A stretch of DNA of 64,000 nucleotides, from positions 7,921,420 through 7,985,419 of the forward strand of contig CM050673.1 in assembly GCA_027574665.1 (NCBI GenBank), in the 5' to 3' direction. The translations under genes were made by a program, and so were the position numbers. The notes under the pieces were generated by a model. That model was given only the letters and a program-made list of their open reading frames with translations, did not search any database and had not been told where the DNA came from. Source of the stretch: Rhynochetos jubatus. Its lineage: Eukaryota > Chordata > Aves > Eurypygiformes > Rhynochetidae. This document shows positions 11,559 to 63,708 of this stretch, piece by piece. How positions within the stretch are numbered: position 1 is the first letter of the stretch; each line of letters starts with the position of its first letter.

Positions 11559-12626
11559 CGCGCCTGGGGCAGGCCGCGCGCCCCTGCGCAGCCGCGCCTG
11601 CGCCGCGCCCGACCCCGCCCCGGGATGACCCCGCCCCCGCGCAGCGACCCCGCCCCGGCCACGCCCCCGCGTTGTCGCTCCGCCCCGCCGCCGCGCCACC
11701 GCCGACGGTACCGGTCGGGGCGGGGGCGCGCGGGGCTCCCACGGCGGGGCGGGGCGCGTGGGCGTCGGGGCTGTCTGGGGCCGGACCCGGCTCGGCAGCA
11801 CCCGGGGGGAGTCCCGCGGTCGGGCCCGTTTCAGCCCAGAGAACCCACACACACCGGCCGCGGGGAACTGCGCCGAGCCCGGCGGCTCCGAGTCCGGTGT
11901 CCAGCCCGCCCCGGTGCCCGCCCCGGTGCCCGCCCACTCTCGGGAGCGCCCGGCCCCGTCACCCCGCGGTCTCTGCCCGGCCCGGCCCGACCCTGCTGCG
12001 GGCCCGGCCCGGTCCCGCGGGAAGTGCTTAGCGGGGCAGCGCCCGTCCCCGCCCCGGTTCTGCCGCCCTCGGGGCCCGGGGAGCCTGGGCCGGCAGGGCC
12101 GCGCTCCCCGACGAGGTGTCCCCGCCGCCGGGGCCGCAGAGCGGGCAGTGACCGGCCCGGTGCTCCGGGGGAAGGCGGGTGCCGCACCGCTGCGGGCGAT
12201 GGCAGGTCCGGTCCCTGCGGCGGGCGGGCCCCGGGGGCTTCCTGCGGCGGCCCCGGGCAGGAAGCGGCGGTTGGCGGGGGCCTTCCTGCTCCGGGGGCCC
12301 CGGCGGCGGGAGCGGGCGGTGCTGGGTCCTGCCCCGGCGAGGGCCCCGTCCTTCCACCGGCCCCGCCGTAGGCTGGCGGCTGGGGGCTGGGGGCTGCCCG
12401 GGGGCCGCTTCCCGGCGCGGGGCGAGCAGGGCCGGCCCGGGCCCGCATCCCGCCGGGGCCCGCATCCGATGGCTTTGGAGTTTCGCTGAGTCAAGCGGGG
12501 CGGGAGCCCGGGTCCCCCCGACCTTCCCGGGCATTGGCTCGGGAGCAGCGCTGGGACGGGCCAGGGACCGGGATAAATCCCCGGGGGCAGCCCCAGCGCG
12601 GCCCTGGCGGTCCCGGCGGTGTGAGG
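11050..12626. promoter_or_regulatory. CpG-rich interval between EZH1 and the RAMP-like gene
   Basis: Very GC-rich, CpG-dense DNA covering the first EZH1 exon (ATG 11558, minus) and running to the RAMP-like start at 12627 (plus). The two genes are head to head about 1.07 kb apart. Long open frames occur on both strands, but none resembles a protein and they fit the expectation for stop-poor GC-rich DNA. I read it as a promoter CpG island for EZH1. Whether the RAMP-like gene also uses it is inference. Confidence 0.65.
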
Positions 12627-14016
12627 ATGCTCCTCGGGGTGCGGCTCCGCTGCTGCCTCCTCCTTCCTCTGCTCCCGTGGGGTAAGGACCGCTGGGACTC
12701 ACAGCCTCTGGGGCTGCTCCCACGGAGTCCAGGGCCTGTTTCTCCCTTCTGTCCCGTCGTGTCCCGGTCGCAAAGGAGCCCCCTGTTCCCCTCCCCTTGA
12801 CCCGAGCTCAGCTCGGCCTGGGAGGAGGAGGGGGTCCCGGTGTGCTGGGACCACCCCACTCGTGCCCCAAAGCTGGCCGGGTGCTGGGGCTGTCCAGGGC
12901 TGTGCAACTCTGGCACCCTGCGTCTCCTTGCTGCAGGGCATGGGGACACCGAGTACGGGGACAGCGAGGACGAAGGTAAGACCCTGGTGCCATGGTCCTG
13001 GCACAGCTCTGGCCCCGGTGATGCTGCTGCCGCAGGCTCAGCTGCTGGCAGAGGCAGTGTCCGTGCTCCGGGGGTTGGAGGCCAGCCCTCGCACTGTCCC
13101 GTGGGTGCTGCCAGAGCCGACGGCGCTGTCCTTCCAGGTCACTACCAGTACCTGGATGAGGACGGTGAGTAGAGCTGTCCTGCAATCCTCCCTATCCCCC
13201 CACGACCTCAGTGGGCTCCGTGCAGGAGCCCCGGTCCGGGGGTGGTTGAGCCCATGGCACCCCCGCGGCCACAGGCAGCCCCAGCGTGGGACGCCGGGGT
13301 GGCGTATGGTAATCTCATGTGGCAATCAGGGCGCCTGTCCCACGCCGGGCAGAGCTGGGGGCGTTCCCCAGGGCTGTCCCCAAACACCCGGGGCCAGGTT
13401 GGCATCCCTGGGTCAGGCTGGTGCTCCGCAGGGCTGCTGGAGGTGCTGGGGGGGGCAGCCCGCTGCCAGGACACCTACGCCGACTGGATCTCCCTCTACT
13501 GCTGGGCCCCCTTCCACGCCACCCTCATGGCCACCCCCGAGGGCAGCCGCTGCCACTGGGACCGGATCAGCAGGTGGGTCGGCGTCAGCGGTGCCGAATG
13601 CACGCTCGGAGCGGGACCTTGGCGGGGCTGCCGCGGTGGCCGTGTCCCCTCCTGGCCTTACGTCACTCCCACGCAGCACCTATGGCGAGCTCTCCAGCTG
13701 CACCCAGCTGCTGGCCCAGCTGCTCTCCTGCCCCTGGCCCAGCGCCGTCCTCGACGCCTTCTTCCTGCAGGTCCATGCGGAATACTTCAGCAACTGCACA
13801 GAGGCCGGCCCCCCCAGGCTGGGCAGGCTGCCCCCCGGGCTGGCTGTGGCTGTGGCCGTGGGGCTCAGCTGCCTTGTGCCCCTCGCAGCCGCCCTCACGC
13901 TCAGCAGAGCCCAGAAGGGGGCTCAAAGCCCAGCGGGCAGCTGCCCACCCCCTGCCTGCCCCTGCGCCTGCGAGGGGCCGGCAGCAGCCCCCTTCCCTTC
14001 CAGCCCCGGGAACTAA
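12627..14016 (+). CDS. RAMP-family protein, RAMP1-like, tandem neighbour of RAMP2
   Basis: Five exons: 12627-12681, 12937-12975, 13138-13164, 13432-13573, 13677-14016 (TAA). All junctions are GT-AG and in phase, giving 200 aa. The protein starts with a leucine-rich signal peptide (about 1-19). An acidic/tyrosine-rich linker encoded by two micro-exons follows (EYGDSEDEG, HYQYLDEDG). Then comes a RAMP ectodomain with six cysteines in contexts RCQD, LYCW, SRCHWDRIS, SSCTQ, LSCPWP and SNCT. I align these one-to-one with the six ectodomain cysteines of RAMP1. FFLQVHAEYFSNCT resembles the RAMP1 helix-3 end, with one N-glycosylation sequon (NCT). One transmembrane segment (LAVAVAVGLSCLVPLAAALTL) precedes an unusual Pro/Cys-rich cytosolic tail. 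RAMPs escort and re-specify class B GPCRs (CALCRL, CALCR); that role here is by family only. It is not RAMP2, which follows at 15451. It could be a RAMP1 duplicate or an old paralogue lost in mammals. Confidence 0.85.
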
Positions 14017-15450: not shown

Positions 15451-17716
15451 ATGGCACCGCGCACGCAGCCGGGCTCCGGCCGCCTCTCCCAGGGGCTCCT
15501 GCTGCTCTGGGGTAAGTGCGCGGGGGGCAGCCCCGGGGCCCGGGCTGCCGGCGACGGGAGGCTCCACGCCTCGTGCTGCCCCGCATGCGGCTGCCCTCCC
15601 ACGCGTGGGGCCCCGGGGCCGGGGTCTTGGCTCAGCCTGGCCGCCTGCCCACCCCGGCACGGGGCTGGCCTGGCAGCACGGAGGGCGGTTGGGATGGCTG
15701 TTGCCAGCGTGGGCAGGGCCCGGTGACGGGCAGGCACCGGGTGCTGCGGGGCATCTCCCACCACGCTGAGCCCCATCTTTTGGCAAACGACCCACGGAAC
15801 GGCTGGGGAGCCTGGCGAAGCCCCAGGCTGGGGCAGAGAGGGGCTGGATGGGGGCATCAGGGATGGGGATGGGACGGGCATTGCTGCAGCCACTGTGCCA
15901 GCCTGGGAGCACCAGCGCCTGGCTGTGCTGCAGCTCTGCTGCAGTGGCCCACCGGGCTGGCTCACCGCGCACCGGCATCGCTGCCCCATGCTGCGGGCCC
16001 TCAGCAGAGGGTGGAAGACGGAGGGGGCGGTTGGAGGAGGCACATGCCCCACAACCATGGCGGGCTGTGCTGGGTGTGGGGCAGGGTGGGTGGGGGGGCT
16101 GTCAGGCAGTGCTGCGGTCAGCGCTTCCTCTTCCTGCTCCAGCCCTGTCCGGCTGCAACGCAGCTGCTCTGGGCGACGGGGCGGCCCTCACATGGGTGGG
16201 GGGCATAGTGAGCCCCCATGCTGTGACCCATGGCCTAGGGCCCACAGGTCCCGGTCAGCCTGCCAAGCCCTTGGGCAGCTGCCCACAGCCTGGCTGGCCC
16301 CCTCCCCACAACCCCTGCCCGTACGGGGGTGGACCCCAGCGTGTTCCGGGCTCCAGGTAGCACAGATCCCCACGCCCTGACCTCCGGCTCCAGCAGCCCC
16401 CATGGAACACCCGAAACCCCTTCCCTGTTGCAGACCCCAGCCCCTGCCGGGGCTGCTTCCATGCACAGGGCCATGCCAGCACTGTGCCCTGCTGACCCTG
16501 TACCCTCCCCTCCACAGCACTCCTGGGGACCGAGCTCTGCCACGTGGCTGACGAGGTGGAAGGCTTCGGCTGCAATGCCAAGACGAGCCCGCCCGGGGCC
16601 ATGGTCAACGGGACGGCCCAGCTCTTGGGTGAGTGCTGGGGTTCGGCCAGGGCCGGGGGCGCCGCGGGACTGCCACTGCTGTGGCCGGGGTTGGCTCTAC
16701 GCCGTGGGGTGACTCCTGCCGTCCCCTGGCTGCGGTGGGGGCAGCCGGCAGCAGCCTGCCCTCCTGCTGTGCTCCTGGGGAGTGCCCCGGGGCTGCTGCG
16801 GGGCCCGCCGGACCCCCAACGTGCTGCCACCCTCCCTGCTGGCCGGACACGGGTGGGGGTGCCGGGCGTTAGCCGTGGGCAGGGCTGGGCTCTGGCAGGG
16901 GGTGCCCGCTCAGCGCCTTTCCCTGCAGAGGAGACGTACGCCAACATCACGCAGAGGTGCTGGAAGGAGTTTGTGAACCTGATGAGGAACGTGACGGCGT
17001 CGGAGCTGTGCGAGTGGAGAGTCATCAGCTGGTACGGGGCAGCCGGGGAGCCCTCCCAGGCAGCGCTGCAGGGCACGGGGGGGCAGGGGCTCTGACCGGC
17101 TCTGGGGACGTCCCCGTGGGGACCCTCAGGTGGGAGCATTGCCTGTGGCCCCTCTGTCCCCATGGCCACACGGGTTGAGCAGCTCCAGAAACAGCGGGAG
17201 GCGTTTGCTGGGGGCAGAGTGCCCCGGGCTGTGCCGACAGGCCACCAGCTCCCGCCCCAAGGGGTCACTTTCCCCTCCGGCCGCTCCGGCCGCTCCGGCC
17301 TGCGTGGGGCCGGCTGGTGCAGGCAGTGGGGCACACGGCAAGCCCCGGGTGGTCCAGAGGGGTGCTGATGGGTCGGGGGGGGTTGCCCAGGGTCCGTGCC
17401 TGCGGCGCCCGCAGCCAGCCCTCGCCCATCCCAGCACGTCGCCGGTCTCCCCCCCCCCAGGCCCTACAGCTTGCTGCAGCAGTGCCTGGAGGGGGCGGCT
17501 GACTACCTGTGCTACGGCTACCCCAACGCGCTGGCGGAGCAGTACATCTTCCAGAGCCACCACCGCTACTTCCACAACTGCTCCCTGGAGCACCCGGTCT
17601 ACTTCGACCCCCCCGAGGACGTGCTGCTGGCCATGATCATCGCCCCCATCTGCCTCATCCCCTTCCTGGTCACCCTGGTCATCTGGCGCAGCAAGGACGG
17701 CAAGGCCCAGCCCTAG
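15451..17716 (+). CDS. RAMP2: RAMP2, receptor activity-modifying protein 2
   Basis: Four exons: 15451-15511, 16518-16628, 16929-17031, 17461-17716 (TAG). All are GT-AG, with the joined frame 176 aa. It is a single-pass type I membrane protein that partners CALCRL to form the adrenomedullin (AM1) receptor and traffics it to the plasma membrane. The diagnostic part is the C-terminal block DPPEDVLLAMIIAPICLIPF followed by WRSKDGKAQP, almost the mammalian RAMP2 transmembrane segment and tail. The ectodomain has ELCEWRVISWPYS, QQCLEGAADYLCYGYPNALAEQ and FHNCSLE, plus four sequons (NGT, NIT, NVT, NCS). It has more ectodomain cysteines (seven) than the four of mammalian RAMP2. Its neighbours (VPS25 downstream, EZH1 further upstream) match the human RAMP2 locus. 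Confidence 0.95.
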
Positions 17717-18241: not shown

Positions 18242-20416
18242 ATGAGCTTCGCGTGGCCCTGGCAGTACAGCTTCCCGCCCTTCTTCACGTGAGCGCGGGA
18301 TGGGGCCGGGAGCGGGGGAAGCGGGGCGGAGCGGGGGGGGGAGGGGGGGGCGGGCGGCCTGGGGGAGCGGGTTAGGCCGGGCCGGGGGGGGGTTCCGGTG
18401 CCCCCGCGGAGCCCCCCCGGAGCCCCTCCGGAGCCCCCCCGGCCCGGGCGCTGAGCGGAGCCCCGCAGGCTGCAGCCCAACGGCGAGACGCGGCAGAAGC
18501 AGCTCTCGGCCTGGTGCGCGCTGGCGCTCGCCTACAGCCAGCGGCACCGGCTGCCCGCCATGACGGTGCGGGAGGCCCAGGACAGCCCGCTCTTCGCCAA
18601 CCACCGCCTGCAGCGTATCCTTTGGGGCCCGGTGCCCCCCGCGGCCCTGCCTTCCGCCCCCCGCCCCCCACCCTGCCCGGTCGGTGAGCGCCTCCTTAAC
18701 CCCCCGGCCCAGGGAAGCTGCCGCTGGAGTCCATCCAGGTGGTGCTGGAGGAGCTCCGCAAGAACGGTGGGTGCCAGCCGTCCGTGCGTCCCGCCTGCGG
18801 CCGCTGCCCGGCCCGTCGCTCGCGGGCAGGCCCCGGCCCGCTGCCGGCAGCCAGACCCCGGGGTCGCCGGGCCCCGCCGTGGGGATGGGCCGTGCCTGCA
18901 AGACCCCGCGGCTCGCCCGCCTGGGAGCCGTACCGCCGCGGTTCCAGGGGTGGGCTGAGCTGCGGGAGGGAGACGGGGCTGGGAGGAGAAATTGATTCGG
19001 GCACCCGTAGGGATGTTTAGGGAGCTGGTGGTCACACGGGGGGGGGAGGGCAGTACCCCAGGGGGTACCAGTGGGTGTAATGTCCTGCGCGCAACCCGCG
19101 GGTTGACCTGTGCTCTGATTCAATACCTCTTCCTCCCTTGATTTTAGGGAACCTGGAGTGGTTGGACAAGAACAAAACCAGTTTTCTGATCATGTGGAGG
19201 AGACCAGAAGAATGGGGAAAGCTCATCTACCAGTGGGTGAGAGCGTAGAAGCTGCCTGCCCCACAGCCCAGGCTCTCTGTGTGCGGGAGGACGGGTGGTA
19301 TCGGCTGCGGCTTGTGAAAAAGACCACGGCAATGTTTTTCTCCTCCTTCCTCGCTGCTTTTACCTTTCTTCTTCCGTTCCTCTCCGTCGCAGAGACGTTA
19401 ACAGCCTTTCACTTGCCGCAAGGTGCGGTGTGAGGGGCGGATGCGCAGCCGTCCGCTCCCGCCGCGGTTGTAGCGAGGGCAGAGCCGCCCCGCCGCGTTG
19501 CCTTCGCGTGGCGCGAGTCCTTACGCGAAACACGCGGGCAGGAAGAGCGGGGAAAGGGACCGTCTTGGTTTCCGTAGGCGCTTTCCCTTTGACTCTCCAG
19601 CGCCCTGGAGTGTTTCCAGGGTGTCCTTGCCCATCGAGTGCTGTCCGTGTTGCGTTTCGCTTGCGCTGGCGCGTACGAGAGACGGTGCTGGGGGCGTTCA
19701 ATCACACGGACGAGCCTTGCTCTGTTGCTTTTGCGTTTCCAGGTGTCAAAGAACGGCCTGACCAACTCCGTGTTCACGCTGTACGAGTTAGCCAGCGGGG
19801 ACGATACAGAGAACGAAGGTAACGTTGTGTTAGTCCTGGGGCAGGTTTTCCGAGCGCGCTTGAGCTGAGCACGTGAACGGTAGTAGATCCTTTACAGCTG
19901 CTCCCAGGAGCTGACCCCGGTGCCCACTGCAGCTTCGCGTGAACATCTCCCTTTGTTGTCACTGTTTGCATTTGAAACCCGCCCCTGCCCCGGCCCTTTA
20001 TCTGGCGGGAGGCGTGGGGTGTTTGGGTTTACACCTAGCTCCTGTGCTGCCTTGAGACCGCTGTGACTCATTCCCTGCTGTCTGTTGACCTTCAGGCTTT
20101 GTTCCTGACGTGCCAAAGTAGCGATGAGTCTGTCGGTGTGCCCGTCGCTCTGGATTTGCCGTAGCGGTACGGCGCTGGAGTCCGAAGGGCGCCCTTCGGA
20201 GCCCTCTGCTTCGCTGCCCTCGGTCCCTGGGCTTTAAGCCTGTTTGTTTCCTGATGCGATTTGGGTTTTTCTCCTGTTGATGGGGATCTCCTTCCTTCCC
20301 TAGAGTTCCACGGCTTGGATGAGATGATGCTGCTCCGTGCCCTGCAAGCCTTGCAGCAGGAGCACAAGGCTGAGATTATCACGCTGGACGATGGCCGAGG
20401 GGTCAAGTTCTTCTGA
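18242..20416 (+). CDS. VPS25: VPS25, ESCRT-II subunit
   Basis: Six exons: 18242-18288, 18469-18614, 18713-18766, 19148-19236, 19743-19818, 20304-20416 (TGA). All junctions are GT-AG and in phase, giving 174 aa (human 176). VPS25 is the doubled subunit of ESCRT-II, which sorts ubiquitinated cargo into multivesicular endosomes and recruits VPS20/CHMP6. The N-terminus MSFAWPWQYSFPPFFT carries the PPFF-type motif that docks VPS22/VPS36. It is followed by the two winged-helix domains (LEELRKNGNLEWLDKNK; FLIMWRRPEEWGKLIYQW; ALQALQQEHKAEII). It ends DDGRGVKFF, as in the family. The first ATG after the CpG-rich leader was chosen because the residues that follow match the family. Confidence 0.97.
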
Positions 20417-59000: not shown

Positions 59001-60006
59001 TCCAGCCCTGGTTCTCTTGGATGCCTTGTGCTCCTCAGCACCAGCGCTGGGCCAGGGTTGTGGCTGAAAGGGCATGTCTCGCGTGCCACCAGCATCTGCC
59101 GCAGGGCAGAGCCCCGAGTCTGGCCGTGGCGTGCCCGGCAGACACACGCAGTGGGTGCCAGTGGGCAGGGGTCCCAGCCTGCGGTACAAACCCCGGAGGT
59201 GGCTGCCGGGCTGGCCACGGAGGCCTGGCAGCACGGTGACAGGGGCCCTGCCATCGCTGGGCGCTGGGGACAGGCTTGTCCTCGCAGGACCTTCTCAGCA
59301 CCTCAGTTTATCTGTGAGCAGGAGGCAGAGCCTGAAGCGGCGAGACCTTGTTCTGGTGGGATTCCTGGGGACGAAGGGGCTGGCGGGAGGAGCTGGTTGT
59401 TCCAGCGCGCTGGGGCCTGAACCTCGCCCTGAGCCGCAGCTCTCCGTGCCTGCCGAAGCTTTCCTACGGCTGCGCAGACGGATGCATTCCCCGCAAAGGC
59501 TTCCACGAGCGAGAGTTAACCAAGTGAAATAAAAAGTACCTCCGAGCTTGGAATCGCGCTGCCAGGGAGAATGTTTACAGGGAAGCAGCCTGATAAACAA
59601 GGAACTTGGGTGAGTTGCAGAGAGGTGAAATTCTACAGCGTGGCAACAATTCCCAGCCTGTCAGAGCCCCGCCGTGGTCCCGGCCACCTCAGGCTGCCTA
59701 CGGGATCGTCGTTTTTCCAGGCAGCTGCGGGAAGCCAGGTTGGACTGAAAAAGGAACAGAAGCCGGAGCCGCCTGTGAGTCACCGACCTGCATCTCGGCG
59801 GGTTCCTCAGGGCACGGCTGGAGGACAGAGGAGGCTGCAGCTCAGAGATCTGCCCTTCTGGTCACCACCAATTTCAGATCTCCTCCCCTAGCCTCTCCCA
59901 GTCTTTTGTGCTTTCCGTGCTAATCCATCCAGTGCAGCATAAACTGACAGCGGCAGCAGCTGGAAACCCGGCTCCGAGAGCCCTGAGAGCCCGGGCGCCG
60001 GCAGCC
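56081..60006. other. Intergenic, PSME3 to amine oxidase
   Basis: GC-rich sequence with no recognisable exon, RNA gene or CR1 copy. A short (GGTGA)n tract occurs near 58947-58966. The last 150 bp or so presumably contain the amine oxidase promoter and 5' UTR; no clear TATA box was identified. Confidence 0.45.
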
Positions 60007-61573
60007 ATGAATGCGAAAACCCTGCTCATCCTCCTCCTCCTGGCCTCAGCCACCGCCTTCGCCTTGGTCTGCGTGCTGCTGAGCAGGGGAAGGGCCCCCA
60101 GCACCTGCCAGCCCCGGCCCCCGGAGCCGGGGGGCGCCGACGACGGCCGGAGCCTGGTCTTTGCCGACCTGACGCCCGCGGAGATGGCGCAAGTGGTGCG
60201 GTACCTGCGGGGCAGCCTGGGCGTGCGGCTGGCCGACGCCTCGCGGGCCGCCCCCTCCGACAGCTGCATCGCCTCCGTCGACCTGCACGTCCCCGCCAAG
60301 GCCGAGGTGCTGCGGTTCCTGGATGAGGGGGGGGCTCGGCCCCCCCGGGAGGCGCTGGCTGTGCTGTACTTTGGGAACCAGCCGGACCCCAACGTCACCG
60401 AGTACGTGGTGGGGCCGCTGCCGGGGCCGGCGTATCACCGGGACGTGACGGTGCAGAAGTACGGGGGGAAGGTGCCCTACCACCGCAGGCCGACGCTGGC
60501 GGTTGAATACCAACAGCTCGCCGGGTTTTTGAGGAGCCGAGTGTTCCCTGCAGCTCCGTCCTTCACGCGTCAGGTCCTGGAGTATGATGGAGCCAATCTC
60601 GCGGCCCTGACGGCCGCTCCCCGGGGGTTCCAGTCTGGAGATCGGATCACCTGGTTTGCTTTGTTCCAGAACGTGAGCGGGTTCTTCCTGCACCCCGTGG
60701 GGCTGGAGGTGCTGGTGGACCACAGCAGCCTGGACGTGGCCCGCTGGGCCGTGAGCAGGGTCTTCTACAACGGGCAGTACTACAGGGACATGGTCCAGCT
60801 GGAGAGCGCCTACGTGCAGGGCCGCGTCAGCGTGGAGAGGGTGAGGAAGGCGCCGCGGGATGGGGACTTCTCGTCCATGAAGCCCCGGGCGCCGCCGGCT
60901 GCGCCGTTCCCTCTGCAGTACGAGCCGCAGGGCCACCGCTACAGCGTCAGGAACAACCACGTCGTCTTCCAGGCCTGGAGCTTTGCCTTCGGGATGAGCG
61001 TGACCACGGGCCTGCGGCTGTTCGACGTTCGACACAGGGGGGAGAGGGTTGCCTATGAGATCAGCGTCCAAGAGGCGCTGTCAGTGTACGGCTCCAACTG
61101 CCCCGGCGGGATGTCCACCAGGTACATGGACGGGAGCTTTGGCATCGGGCGCTACACCTCCCCCTTGGTGCGGGGGGTTGACTGCCCCTACTTGGCCACG
61201 TACCTGGACGTGCACTACCTCGCTCATTCCCAGGTCTCCAGAGTGACGAAGGGCGCCCTCTGCATCTTCGAGCAGAACCTGGGCTCCCCTCTGCGCCGCC
61301 ACTACTCCAACTTGCAGTCGCTCTACTACGGGGGGCTGGTCAACTCCGCCCTGGTCGTTCGGTCCATCGCCACCGTGGGCAACTACGACTACGTGTGGGA
61401 CTTCATCTTCTACCAGAACGGGGCCATCGAAGGCAAGGTGCAGGCCACGGGGTACGCGAGCTCGTCCTTCCTGCACGGGGATGGCCTGAGATACGGCAAC
61501 AGGGTTGGGGAGCACACGCTGGGCACGATACACACCCACGCCGTCAACTATAAGGTGGACTTGGACGTGGGAG
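60007..61573 (+). CDS. AOC3: Copper amine oxidase, AOC2/AOC3 type, first coding exon (partial)
   Basis: One long exon (522 codons plus 1 nt) ends at a GT donor (61574). The remaining exons are not in the window. It is an ectoenzyme that oxidises primary amines to aldehyde, ammonia and hydrogen peroxide, with copper and topaquinone. The N-terminus MNAKTLLILLLLASATAFAL is a type II membrane anchor close to that of AOC3 (VAP-1). Catalytic features are the base Asp375 in YMDGSFGIG, the topaquinone Tyr460 in VGNYDYVWDF, and copper ligands His509 and His511 in GTIHTHAVNYK. The third copper histidine is expected in a later exon. All sit 11 residues before the human AOC3 positions, consistent with a slightly shorter N-terminus. 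Some segments (VGNYDYVWDF, GNRVGE, FFLHPVGLE) look more like AOC2, so the AOC3 symbol is provisional. A partial copy lies downstream at 63545. Confidence 0.88.
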
Positions 61574-63544
61574 GTAGGTTGGGGTCTTCCTTTAATGTCT
61601 GCCGTTGTCCTGATCGACGCCAAAGCTCCGGGGGGGTTGCCTCCCAGCCTGTGCAATCCCTAATAACCCCTCAGCGCTCCGCTTTTCCCCTCTTCTAACC
61701 TCTTCTTTCGCTGGAAAATTGCTTTTCCCCGTGTAAAACAGGGCCCAGGTCACGGCGGCGGGGGCAGCGCGGGTTGTCTGCCCGCTCTGCGCTCAGCCCA
61801 GGGATAGTATGAAAGGCAGCAGCCGAGCGATGTTTGTGTTTCCTGGAGGCCTCACGCCTGGCGCGGTGCGTGTTGCCGCTGGCACGGCGCCTGTTGCCGC
61901 TGGCACGGCCGACGGGCAGACCCAGCCCTGTCTGCAGGCCGGGGGGTGCGAGCCGGCTCCGGCTGCGCCTGCGGATCGTCCTGGTGCTCCCTGTATCCCG
62001 GGAAAGTCCTTCCCGTACCTCAGCTGCTCGGCGCAAGGCAGGACACCGGACGGATGCTCTGCAGCTCCGTCCCCGCGCCTCTTTTGAGGAAACACTTGGA
62101 AGTTGGCTCTGGAGAGTTGGGCTGTGGAGCCGCTGGAGCGAGCCAGTGAATTCCCTGCTCCCGCCCAGTCCCGGCTGTTGGCGGCAGATCCCTGCCGAGC
62201 GTTGTCTGAGTCCAGGAGCAGCTCCTGCACGGTCTGGCGGGCTGGGCAGTGAGGAGCTGCCCCCCCCGGAGGCACAGGGATGCCCATCCCCAGGGAAGCA
62301 GCTTTGCTTCCCCGCAAAGACCGTTCCCGTTAGCGCAGCCCGGGGAGGCGCGGGGGCAGCGGGATGTGGGGCACAGGCGGCCGTTGCGGCTCCCCTAAAG
62401 GGCGGGGGGGAAATGTTCTACATCTGCACAGGAGCAGAGAGACGCTGGTAGGCAGTGGGGAGGGGAAATGCACCCCCGGTAGCCTGTGCCATCGCGGGGA
62501 GCAGCCGGAGAGCGGTGTTTGTCCAGCTGCAGCTGACCCCGGCGCAAGCGTCCGGCCCGACGCGCGTCCTCGTGTACCTGCTGCGACGCGGCGGTTCGTG
62601 CGACGTGGAAAAGCGTTGCCGTTGCGGTGGAGAGCGGAGCTGGCGCCGGTTCCCTCCCGGCGAGCAGGGCTCGGAAATGCGGCAGAGTACGGCTCCCGGG
62701 TCCCCTCCGGGAGAGCGGTGCCCCTCGGCTCCCTGCGCTGCTCACGGACCCCAAGCCCAAGGTGCCCTGGAGAGGAGTCGTGCGAAATCCCAGGCTCGTT
62801 CCCCGGGGCGGGCAGTCCAGTCCCAATCAGGGGATTCGGGGCCACGCGGGGAGCTCGAGGGGTGTCCTACAGGATCCCCGCCTTCCGAGCGCGGGGAGGG
62901 CAGGGCCGCAGCCCAGCGGAAGCGGGTCACGTCCCACGCTGGTTTCTTGGCTCCTGATCTGAGGCTGGTGTGGGACCTGCTGGGAGAACGGGCGAGTATT
63001 CCCTGGCTGGAAGTGGGAACCGAAACGCACGTTCCCACAGTAACGTGATCGCAGAGTGGGAAGCTGACGTGGTGCCGCAGAGGTTTCGGCTCCTGCCTCT
63101 GCCCCAAACCGTCCCCAGGAGAAGGGCGTGAAGAGGATCGGGATCCCTGGAAAACCACCCTCGGCTGTCGGTGTCCTGTCGCTGCCGCCTCGCACGGGGC
63201 TGGGTGCAGGGGGGGCTGTGCAGAACGGTGGGGTGGCCCCCTCTCCCCGGCCCCCTGCCCTCTCCTTGCCAGGGAAGGGCCGTTGTGCGGTCGGGGGAAC
63301 TGGAGAGTTTCCTGGCAGTAACCGCTCCTGCCCGTGACCGTGCGTGTCCAGGGATCGTGTCCGCTGGGATGGCGGAAAGGGACAGGTCGTGGTAGCCACC
63401 CTGCACCCCCGCTCTCGCCGGTGCAGCCGCTCCTGGCACTGCCTCCCGCTTGCGGTTGCTGCCAGGGGTTCGGCGAGCGCGGCCCATTCTCACCAGGGAG
63501 CTTCGTCCCGTCTGGACTGGTCTGCCCAGACCGGTTCTGGCCTC
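61574..63544 (+). other. Amine oxidase intron, sequence between the exon and its partial copy
   Basis: No exon similar to amine oxidase exon 2 (which should start with a GLxNWV-like segment) was found here. No CR1 copy was seen. Confidence 0.55.
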
Positions 63545-63708
63545 CTACCAGAACGGGGCCATCGAAGGCAAGGCGCGGGCCACGGGGTACGCGAGCTCGT
63601 CCTTCCTGCACAGGGGTGGCCTGAGGTACGGCAACAGGGCGGGGGAGCACACGCTGGGCACGATACACACCCACGCCCTCAACTATAAGGTGGACTTGGA
63701 CGTGGGAG
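63545..63708 (+). pseudogene. Partial duplicate of the amine oxidase exon 3' end
   Basis: These 164 bp match 61410-61573 without any indel and with 8 mismatches (about 95%). The offset is 2135 bp and the GGAG/GTAGGT splice donor is kept. The encoded segment starts at YQNGAIEGK and ends at KVDLDVG, with six substitutions. Both copper histidines are kept (GTIHTHALNY). The upstream part of the exon, including the topaquinone NYDY and the catalytic Asp, is absent. The similarity stops abruptly at 63545, preceded by unrelated sequence. It could be a truncated tandem duplicate, an alternative exon, or an assembly artefact. Confidence 0.8.

Follow-up and report, generated by a model that had tools for sequence, protein, structure and literature searches.

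A candidate fourth RAMP gene with a RAMP1-type ectodomain in tandem with RAMP2 in Rhynochetos jubatus

Introduction

RAMPs determine the hormone to which a receptor of the calcitonin family responds. In the window analysed here, a stretch of 64,000 nucleotides of the Rhynochetos jubatus genome, an intact-looking gene of RAMP type, which we call X, lies between EZH1 and RAMP2; the human EZH1-RAMP2 locus is not known to contain any RAMP gene besides RAMP2. The original prediction, made from the window alone, held this gene to be a complete RAMP1-like gene and offered two origins for it, an old paralogue or a lineage-specific transposed copy. We ask here whether X is a genuine fourth RAMP, where it may have come from and what it may do.

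RAMP1 is described as a core component of the CGRP receptor, which is important for the treatment of migraine (PMC9787598). Additional RAMPs beyond the usual three are found in teleosts as RAMP4 and RAMP5 (mefugu); these are fish genes, considered here from published descriptions. They have been grouped as RAMP1/4 and RAMP2/5 (PMC6283891), and RAMP4 together with CLR1 is reported to form a CGRP receptor (PMC6283891, PMC2614204). One of these reports states that RAMP4 genes may exist outside fish, with none yet identified, and that RAMP5 derived from an early duplication of RAMP2 and is held to have been lost before life on land (PMC2614204); X could bear on one or the other of these questions. 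For birds, the accessible text of a 2024 chicken study describes the cloning of three RAMPs and names no fourth (PMC11010885). The same text reports that chicken RAMP1, and also RAMP3, raise the sensitivity of CLR and CTR to CGRP, that RAMP2 does so little, and that CLR answers CT without any RAMP (PMC11010885). Our search of the openly available literature returned no report of a fourth bird RAMP; X may already bear an automatic database name such as RAMP1-like. If chickens or other birds have it, a fourth, RAMP1-type RAMP would add possible receptors to the CT/CGRP response table, and X would help to date the expansion of the RAMP family.

Gene structure and genomic setting

From sequence evidence, X is placed at positions 12627-14016 of the window as a five-exon gene with the following features.

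12572..12577, + strand: TATA-like GATAAA upstream of the start codon, putative core promoter of X; a weak pattern match
12627..12681, + strand: X exon 1, with the start codon and an apparent signal peptide MLLGVRLRCCLLLPLLPWG (judged by eye); ends in phase 1
12937..12975, + strand: X exon 2, a 39-base micro-exon, phase 1-1, acidic with one tyrosine, GHGDTEYGDSEDE
13138..13164, + strand: X exon 3, a micro-exon of 27 bases in phase 1-1, again acidic and holding two tyrosines, GHYQYLDED
13432..13573, + strand: X exon 4, first half of the ectodomain with three of the six cysteines; ends in phase 2
13677..14016, + strand: X exon 5, second half of the ectodomain with the other three cysteines, the CPWP loop, a helix with DAFFLQVHAEYFSNC and the NCT sequon, followed by the transmembrane segment, a tail of about 36 residues and the stop codon
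15142..15147, + strand: ATTAAA, possible 3' end of X; the sole AATAAA/ATTAAA between the X stop and the RAMP2 start
15451..17716, + strand: RAMP2, the tandem neighbour, exons 15451-15511, 16518-16628, 16929-17031 and 17461-17716

The exons join as originally predicted, giving 603 bases in frame from an ATG to one terminal stop and a product of 200 amino acids, and the four introns (255, 162, 267 and 103 bases) are all GT-AG. The predicted location between EZH1 and RAMP2 is likewise confirmed by matches to both neighbours: EZH1 lies upstream on the minus strand (1.4e-43 to human EZH1), and RAMP2 (7.5e-40 to human RAMP2) adjoins X on the same strand, with VPS25 following downstream from about position 18242 (9.7e-71). 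No AATAAA or ATTAAA occurs within 1.1 kb 3' of the X stop codon. The codons of X have a G+C content of 0.88 at third and 0.56 at second positions, and a hydrophobic span with mean hydropathy up to 2.44 covers approximately residues 139-165.

X and RAMP2 have their core introns in common, one in phase 1 before the ectodomain and one in phase 2 within it. The phase-2 intron falls in the same alignment column in X as in RAMP1, RAMP2 and RAMP3 of the Rhynochetos genome, the junctions of RAMP1 and RAMP3 having been read by eye from their exons 2 and 3 only. As exons 2 and 3 of X are both phase 1-1, either could be skipped without breaking the frame. These micro-exons (12937-12975 and 13138-13164) both start with GH and end in an acidic run with tyrosines, and they may represent an internal duplication. 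The window's RAMP2 has peculiarities of its own, namely an extra N-terminal exon (16518-16628) with two cysteines, and a cysteine one column before that of C82, which RAMP2 lacks.

Family membership and RAMP complement of the genome

The intactness of X, its family, its cysteines, its pocket residues and its tandem position can be read from the DNA. An open frame alone would be weak evidence for the gene, because in DNA as G+C-rich as this the frame of exon 5 runs for 463 codons without a stop; the evidence for a real gene is instead its domain score, its cysteines and its shared intron position. The product matches the Pfam RAMP family (PF04901) with an E value of 1.6e-20 and 73.6 bits (curated cut-off 27), and exon 5 by itself was found by the RAMP model in the whole 1.33 Gb genome (E 9.6e-11). 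Among PDB sequences the best match is human RAMP1 (4.5e-15), followed by RAMP2 (3.3e-9) and RAMP3 (1.2e-6). X has the four ectodomain cysteines (40, 57, 72 and 104) named as conserved in the family by PMC6283891 and PMC2614204, and its cysteines at columns 27, 40, 57, 72, 82 and 104 (human RAMP1 numbering) complete the RAMP1/3 set of six, as had been predicted. Of the 11 ectodomain columns that do not vary among the other six RAMPs, X keeps nine (cysteines 4/4, others 5/7), and it matches the Rhynochetos RAMP1 in 23 of 68 variable columns. This difference (binomial 0.0015), a rough guide given that the six reference RAMPs are related to one another, speaks for continued constraint on X. Beyond the hydrophobic span, the predicted tail runs to about 36 residues, unlike the short intracellular end of RAMPs, given as about nine residues (PMC11131010), which we do not regard as defining the family.

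A search of the 1.33 Gb genome with the RAMP model gave four places above the cut-off (18 of 18 candidates scored), namely X and RAMP2 on contig C28 and a single place on each of C6 and C7. Using X as the query recovered the same loci and no other, with seven exon-level matches at E up to 1, and no relative turned up when viral contigs were scanned for chance vertebrate DNA. The C7 gene corresponds, in its exons 2 and 3, to human RAMP1 (1.2e-51), and the C6 gene, in the same two exons, to human RAMP3 (1.6e-58). As RAMP1, RAMP2 and RAMP3 are all present in the same genome, X counts as a fourth member of the family; that it is RAMP1 placed wrongly by the assembly is rejected, because RAMP1 sits on a separate contig.

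A RAMP1-type ectodomain and its pocket residues

The ectodomain of X is closest to RAMP1, with 41% identity to the Rhynochetos protein and 38% to the human one, compared to 30% and 25% for RAMP2 and 23% and 23% for RAMP3. When ectodomain columns were resampled and similarities summed, RAMP1 was nearest to X in 1973 of 2000 replicates. X shares with RAMP1 (human PDB 6e3y chain E) the six cysteines, a tryptophan two residues after the third cysteine, W84-P85, the residues D90, F93, V96, H97 and F101, the lack of Glu at 74, and the phase-2 intron before TY/SY; among the seven RAMPs aligned, D90, F93 and V96 of helix 3 are common to X and both RAMP1s only. With RAMP3 (human PDB 6uus chain E) it shares six cysteines, W84 and FSNCT, but RAMP3 has Glu at 74 and Leu in place of W59, and only two of 31 RAMP3-diagnostic columns match X. 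RAMP2 (human PDB 6uun chain E) has the C-W and I-S of exon 4 and extra phase 1-1 coding between the signal exon and the core in common with X; unlike X, it lacks C27 and C82, and its residues at positions 74 and 84 are Glu and Tyr/Phe, respectively.

In peptide-bound structures, W84 of RAMP1 is described as packing on the C-terminal Phe of CGRP, and E101 of RAMP2, which corresponds to RAMP1 position 74, as holding a Tyr of adrenomedullin (PMC4504005). The conserved signatures given in the same source are W84 without Glu at 74 for RAMP1, E101 with F/Y at 111 for RAMP2, and E74 with W84 for RAMP3, a small residue being found at 70 in RAMP1/3 (PMC4504005). X, with W84, Q74 and S70, conforms to the RAMP1-type rule, and the RAMP2 features are absent from it, as it has C27, C82, Q at 101 and W at 111 (RAMP2 numbering). 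The other RAMPs of this genome each fit their own rule: RAMP1 has W84, A74 and T70, RAMP2 has E and Y, and RAMP3 has E74, W84 and T70. The rule is a guide and not a proof, because a swap of four pocket residues is reported not to have exchanged RAMP pharmacology (PMC4504005).

A divergent arm, membrane segment and tail

Outside the ectodomain core X differs from RAMP1 in adding the two acidic micro-exons, in a longer, Cys-rich tail and in a strongly changed membrane segment. Three tyrosines lie in the acidic arm that the micro-exons encode. One of them, Tyr25, has five acidic and no basic residues within five positions and satisfies the usual sulfation pattern; Tyr34 and Tyr36 do so less well. 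The tail, which with the membrane segment spans 13870-14013, contains a cysteine cluster, CPCAC, that is absent from the other RAMPs compared. For QSKRT, a tail motif of RAMP1, the literature searched returned nothing.

In the juxtamembrane and membrane part, X keeps two of 11 family-invariant columns as aligned and three of 11 in six other registers. Two motifs, a membrane-proximal DPP and a C-terminal W-SK, do not vary among the other six RAMPs; the Asp of the first and the Trp of the second are lost from X in every register tried, and PP and S can be matched in some. In the MAFFT register only, C-L-V-P in the membrane segment of X aligns to C-L-I-P of RAMP2, and resampling of the membrane-part columns placed RAMP2 nearest to X in 1768 of 2000 replicates. 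With PP or S anchored, the matches to RAMP2-diagnostic columns fall from 4/15 to 0-3 of 14-16, and those to RAMP1 are 3-5 of 9-11. The lean of the membrane part towards RAMP2 is thus register-dependent, since other registers cut the RAMP2-diagnostic matches. Over both parts as aligned, X matches 8/28 diagnostic columns of RAMP1, 7/24 of RAMP2 and 2/31 of RAMP3.

Phylogeny and origin

We constructed phylogenies from seven sequences, namely X, RAMP1, RAMP2 and RAMP3 of the Rhynochetos genome and human RAMP1-3 from the PDB, in eight runs under LG+G4 or a mixture model, the 'auto' alignment under LG+G4 repeating the full-length tree. X paired with RAMP1 in six of the eight runs, with weak support (49/10 to 66/76), and with RAMP2 in the other two, also weakly (einsi 55/29 and ginsi 54/30, both LG+G4). 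Holding X together with the Rhynochetos RAMP2 cost 7.3 to 11.3 log-likelihood units, with p-AU values of 0.018 for the ectodomain, 0.092 for the full length (the same in 'auto'), 0.025 for einsi and 0.028 for ginsi, and of 0.072, 0.093 and 0.105 in the mixture runs, being below 0.05 in three of the eight. Pairing X with the Rhynochetos RAMP1 gave p 0.11-0.25, and with the RAMP3 pair p 0.20 to 0.24, so that neither grouping is rejected. The terminal branch of X exceeds all others in the trees, at 1.5-1.9 changes per column under LG+G4 and 3.6-4.1 under the mixture model, a length that either relaxed constraint or a new role would lead one to expect. Because the trees comprise seven sequences, one of them on a very long branch, the deep placement of X is weak either way. 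The protein search and the resemblance in cysteines and ectodomain uphold the predicted RAMP family and RAMP1 as the closest match; descent from the RAMP1 lineage is possible but, given the six-to-two split of the trees, weakly supported.

X looks old by these comparisons, being neither a recent copy of RAMP2, given the log-likelihood cost, nor one of RAMP1, given the identity between them. Both that cost and the p-AU values speak against a recent origin of X from RAMP2 next to it; at the DNA level, X and the RAMP2 region share one 28-base match, of X exon 5 to a RAMP2 intron, that we take as chance. In our view X is probably an old paralogue, in tandem with RAMP2, that has kept a six-cysteine, RAMP1-type ectodomain and works in a RAMP1-like manner. 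X may descend from a pair of genes older than the block duplications, or from a later copy of RAMP2.

The second of these origins deserves serious weight, although we lean against it. X would then stem from a tandem duplication of RAMP2 before the bird-mammal split, its ectodomain being ancestral and RAMP2 having later lost C27-C82; it would still be a modifier of CLR/CTR, and might even correspond, in tetrapods, to the RAMP5 of fish. The adjoining position, the extra phase 1-1 exons that both genes carry between signal exon and core, the two LG+G4 trees that join X to RAMP2, the near-equal share of whole-length diagnostic columns and the membrane part in the MAFFT register are consistent with such a duplication. 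The extra exons of the two genes are, however, unlike each other by eye, the membrane lean drops away once PP or S is anchored, and both the ectodomain resampling and the six weakly supported trees point to RAMP1.

The other origin, an old pair, can be extended into a more tentative proposal, which we consider possible but doubtful: a tandem RAMP pair, one gene of six-cysteine type and one of RAMP2 type, would predate the vertebrate genome duplications, and X would be the surviving six-cysteine partner beside RAMP2, an ohnologue of RAMP1/RAMP3, kept in birds as a fourth receptor subunit whose sulfated arm captures basic peptides of the CGRP family. In the genome profile search, each RAMP contig carries matches to the IGFBP model, at 0.6 Mb from RAMP3 on C6 (two matches, 28 kb apart), 0.75 Mb from RAMP2/X on C28 and 21 Mb from RAMP1 on C7 (two matches, 88 kb apart), all at the level of the family model. 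Sharing of a contig is not by itself rare, because 19 IGFBP matches are spread over 12 contigs. Human IGFBP1/3, IGFBP4 and IGFBP2/5 are placed on the HOX-linked chromosomes 7p, 17q and 2q in PMC2235844, which itself argues that a single two-round scheme does not account for those regions. The IGFBP setting is consistent with RAMP1, RAMP2 and RAMP3 as relatives by block duplication, and X as an extra gene beside RAMP2.

Proposed function

Under the old-paralogue reading that we prefer, X would be made as a single-pass membrane protein and would work as RAMP1 does, pairing with CLR, and probably also with CTR, through its three-helix ectodomain and its membrane helix. With a tryptophan in its loop, and lacking the glutamate that favours adrenomedullin, it would complete the hormone pocket in such a way that CGRP-like peptides are preferred; we infer such a preference, with CLR or CTR, because W84, Q74 and S70 fit the RAMP1 rule. 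The arm and tail suggest ligand capture and trafficking different from those of RAMP1: an acidic, probably sulfated N-terminal arm, a glycosylation site at NCT and the longer Cys-rich tail would alter both. The expression of X, its pairing partner, its ligand preference and its sulfation are predictions from the sequence, and X is best described as a real, intact-looking and old fourth RAMP with a predicted function. As RAMP membrane helices are reported to contact TM3-5 of CLR (PMC8427520), the changed membrane part could weaken the pairing of X with CLR. The combination, in a natural protein, of a RAMP1-type ectodomain with another membrane helix would offer a ready-made test of the role of each part.

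The changed membrane segment and tail could also mean that X is expressed but acts outside the calcitonin-receptor system, with other receptor partners or at the surface alone, and RAMPs are reported with many other receptors (PMC11131010, PMC3907859); we think this unlikely, as X keeps the RAMP1 pocket residues, a retention that would be surprising for a peptide site out of use. Less likely still is that X is decaying or silent, with a frame still open but no functional protein made. The long branch, the poorly conserved membrane part, the want of AATAAA/ATTAAA close behind the stop and the cheapness of open frames in G+C-rich DNA are what such a gene might display, but four intact introns, including those around the two micro-exons, all six cysteines and nine of 11 invariant ectodomain columns argue for a gene in use. 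Least likely is that, within the bird line, RAMP1 was copied to the RAMP2 locus, the transposed copy of the original prediction: the top similarity of X is indeed to RAMP1 and the trees tolerate the pairing (p 0.11-0.25), but RAMP1 stands on C7 with its own exons 2 and 3 and X on C28, the 41% identity between them is below the 56% of human and Rhynochetos RAMP1 in the ectodomain and therefore argues against a recent copy, X is no retrocopy because it has introns and micro-exons of its own, and its DNA likeness to the 70 kb RAMP1 region amounts to one 138-base stretch, 67% alike, at the start of exon 5.

Other features of the window and genome

Two further observations concern sequences away from X. 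The window contains a long open frame at 59779-61695, which we take to resemble an AOC-type amine oxidase, and two near-identical stretches about 2.1 kb apart (61413-61547 and 63548-63682) suggest a tandem copy. Avian-type keratin genes, which other reptiles also carry, gave at least 150 matches to their model (150 of 197 candidates scored, all matching), with large arrays on the window's own contig C28 (1.85-1.96 Mb), on C32 (2.79-3.16 Mb), on C35 (1.38-1.63 Mb) and on C1 (0.96-1.17 Mb).
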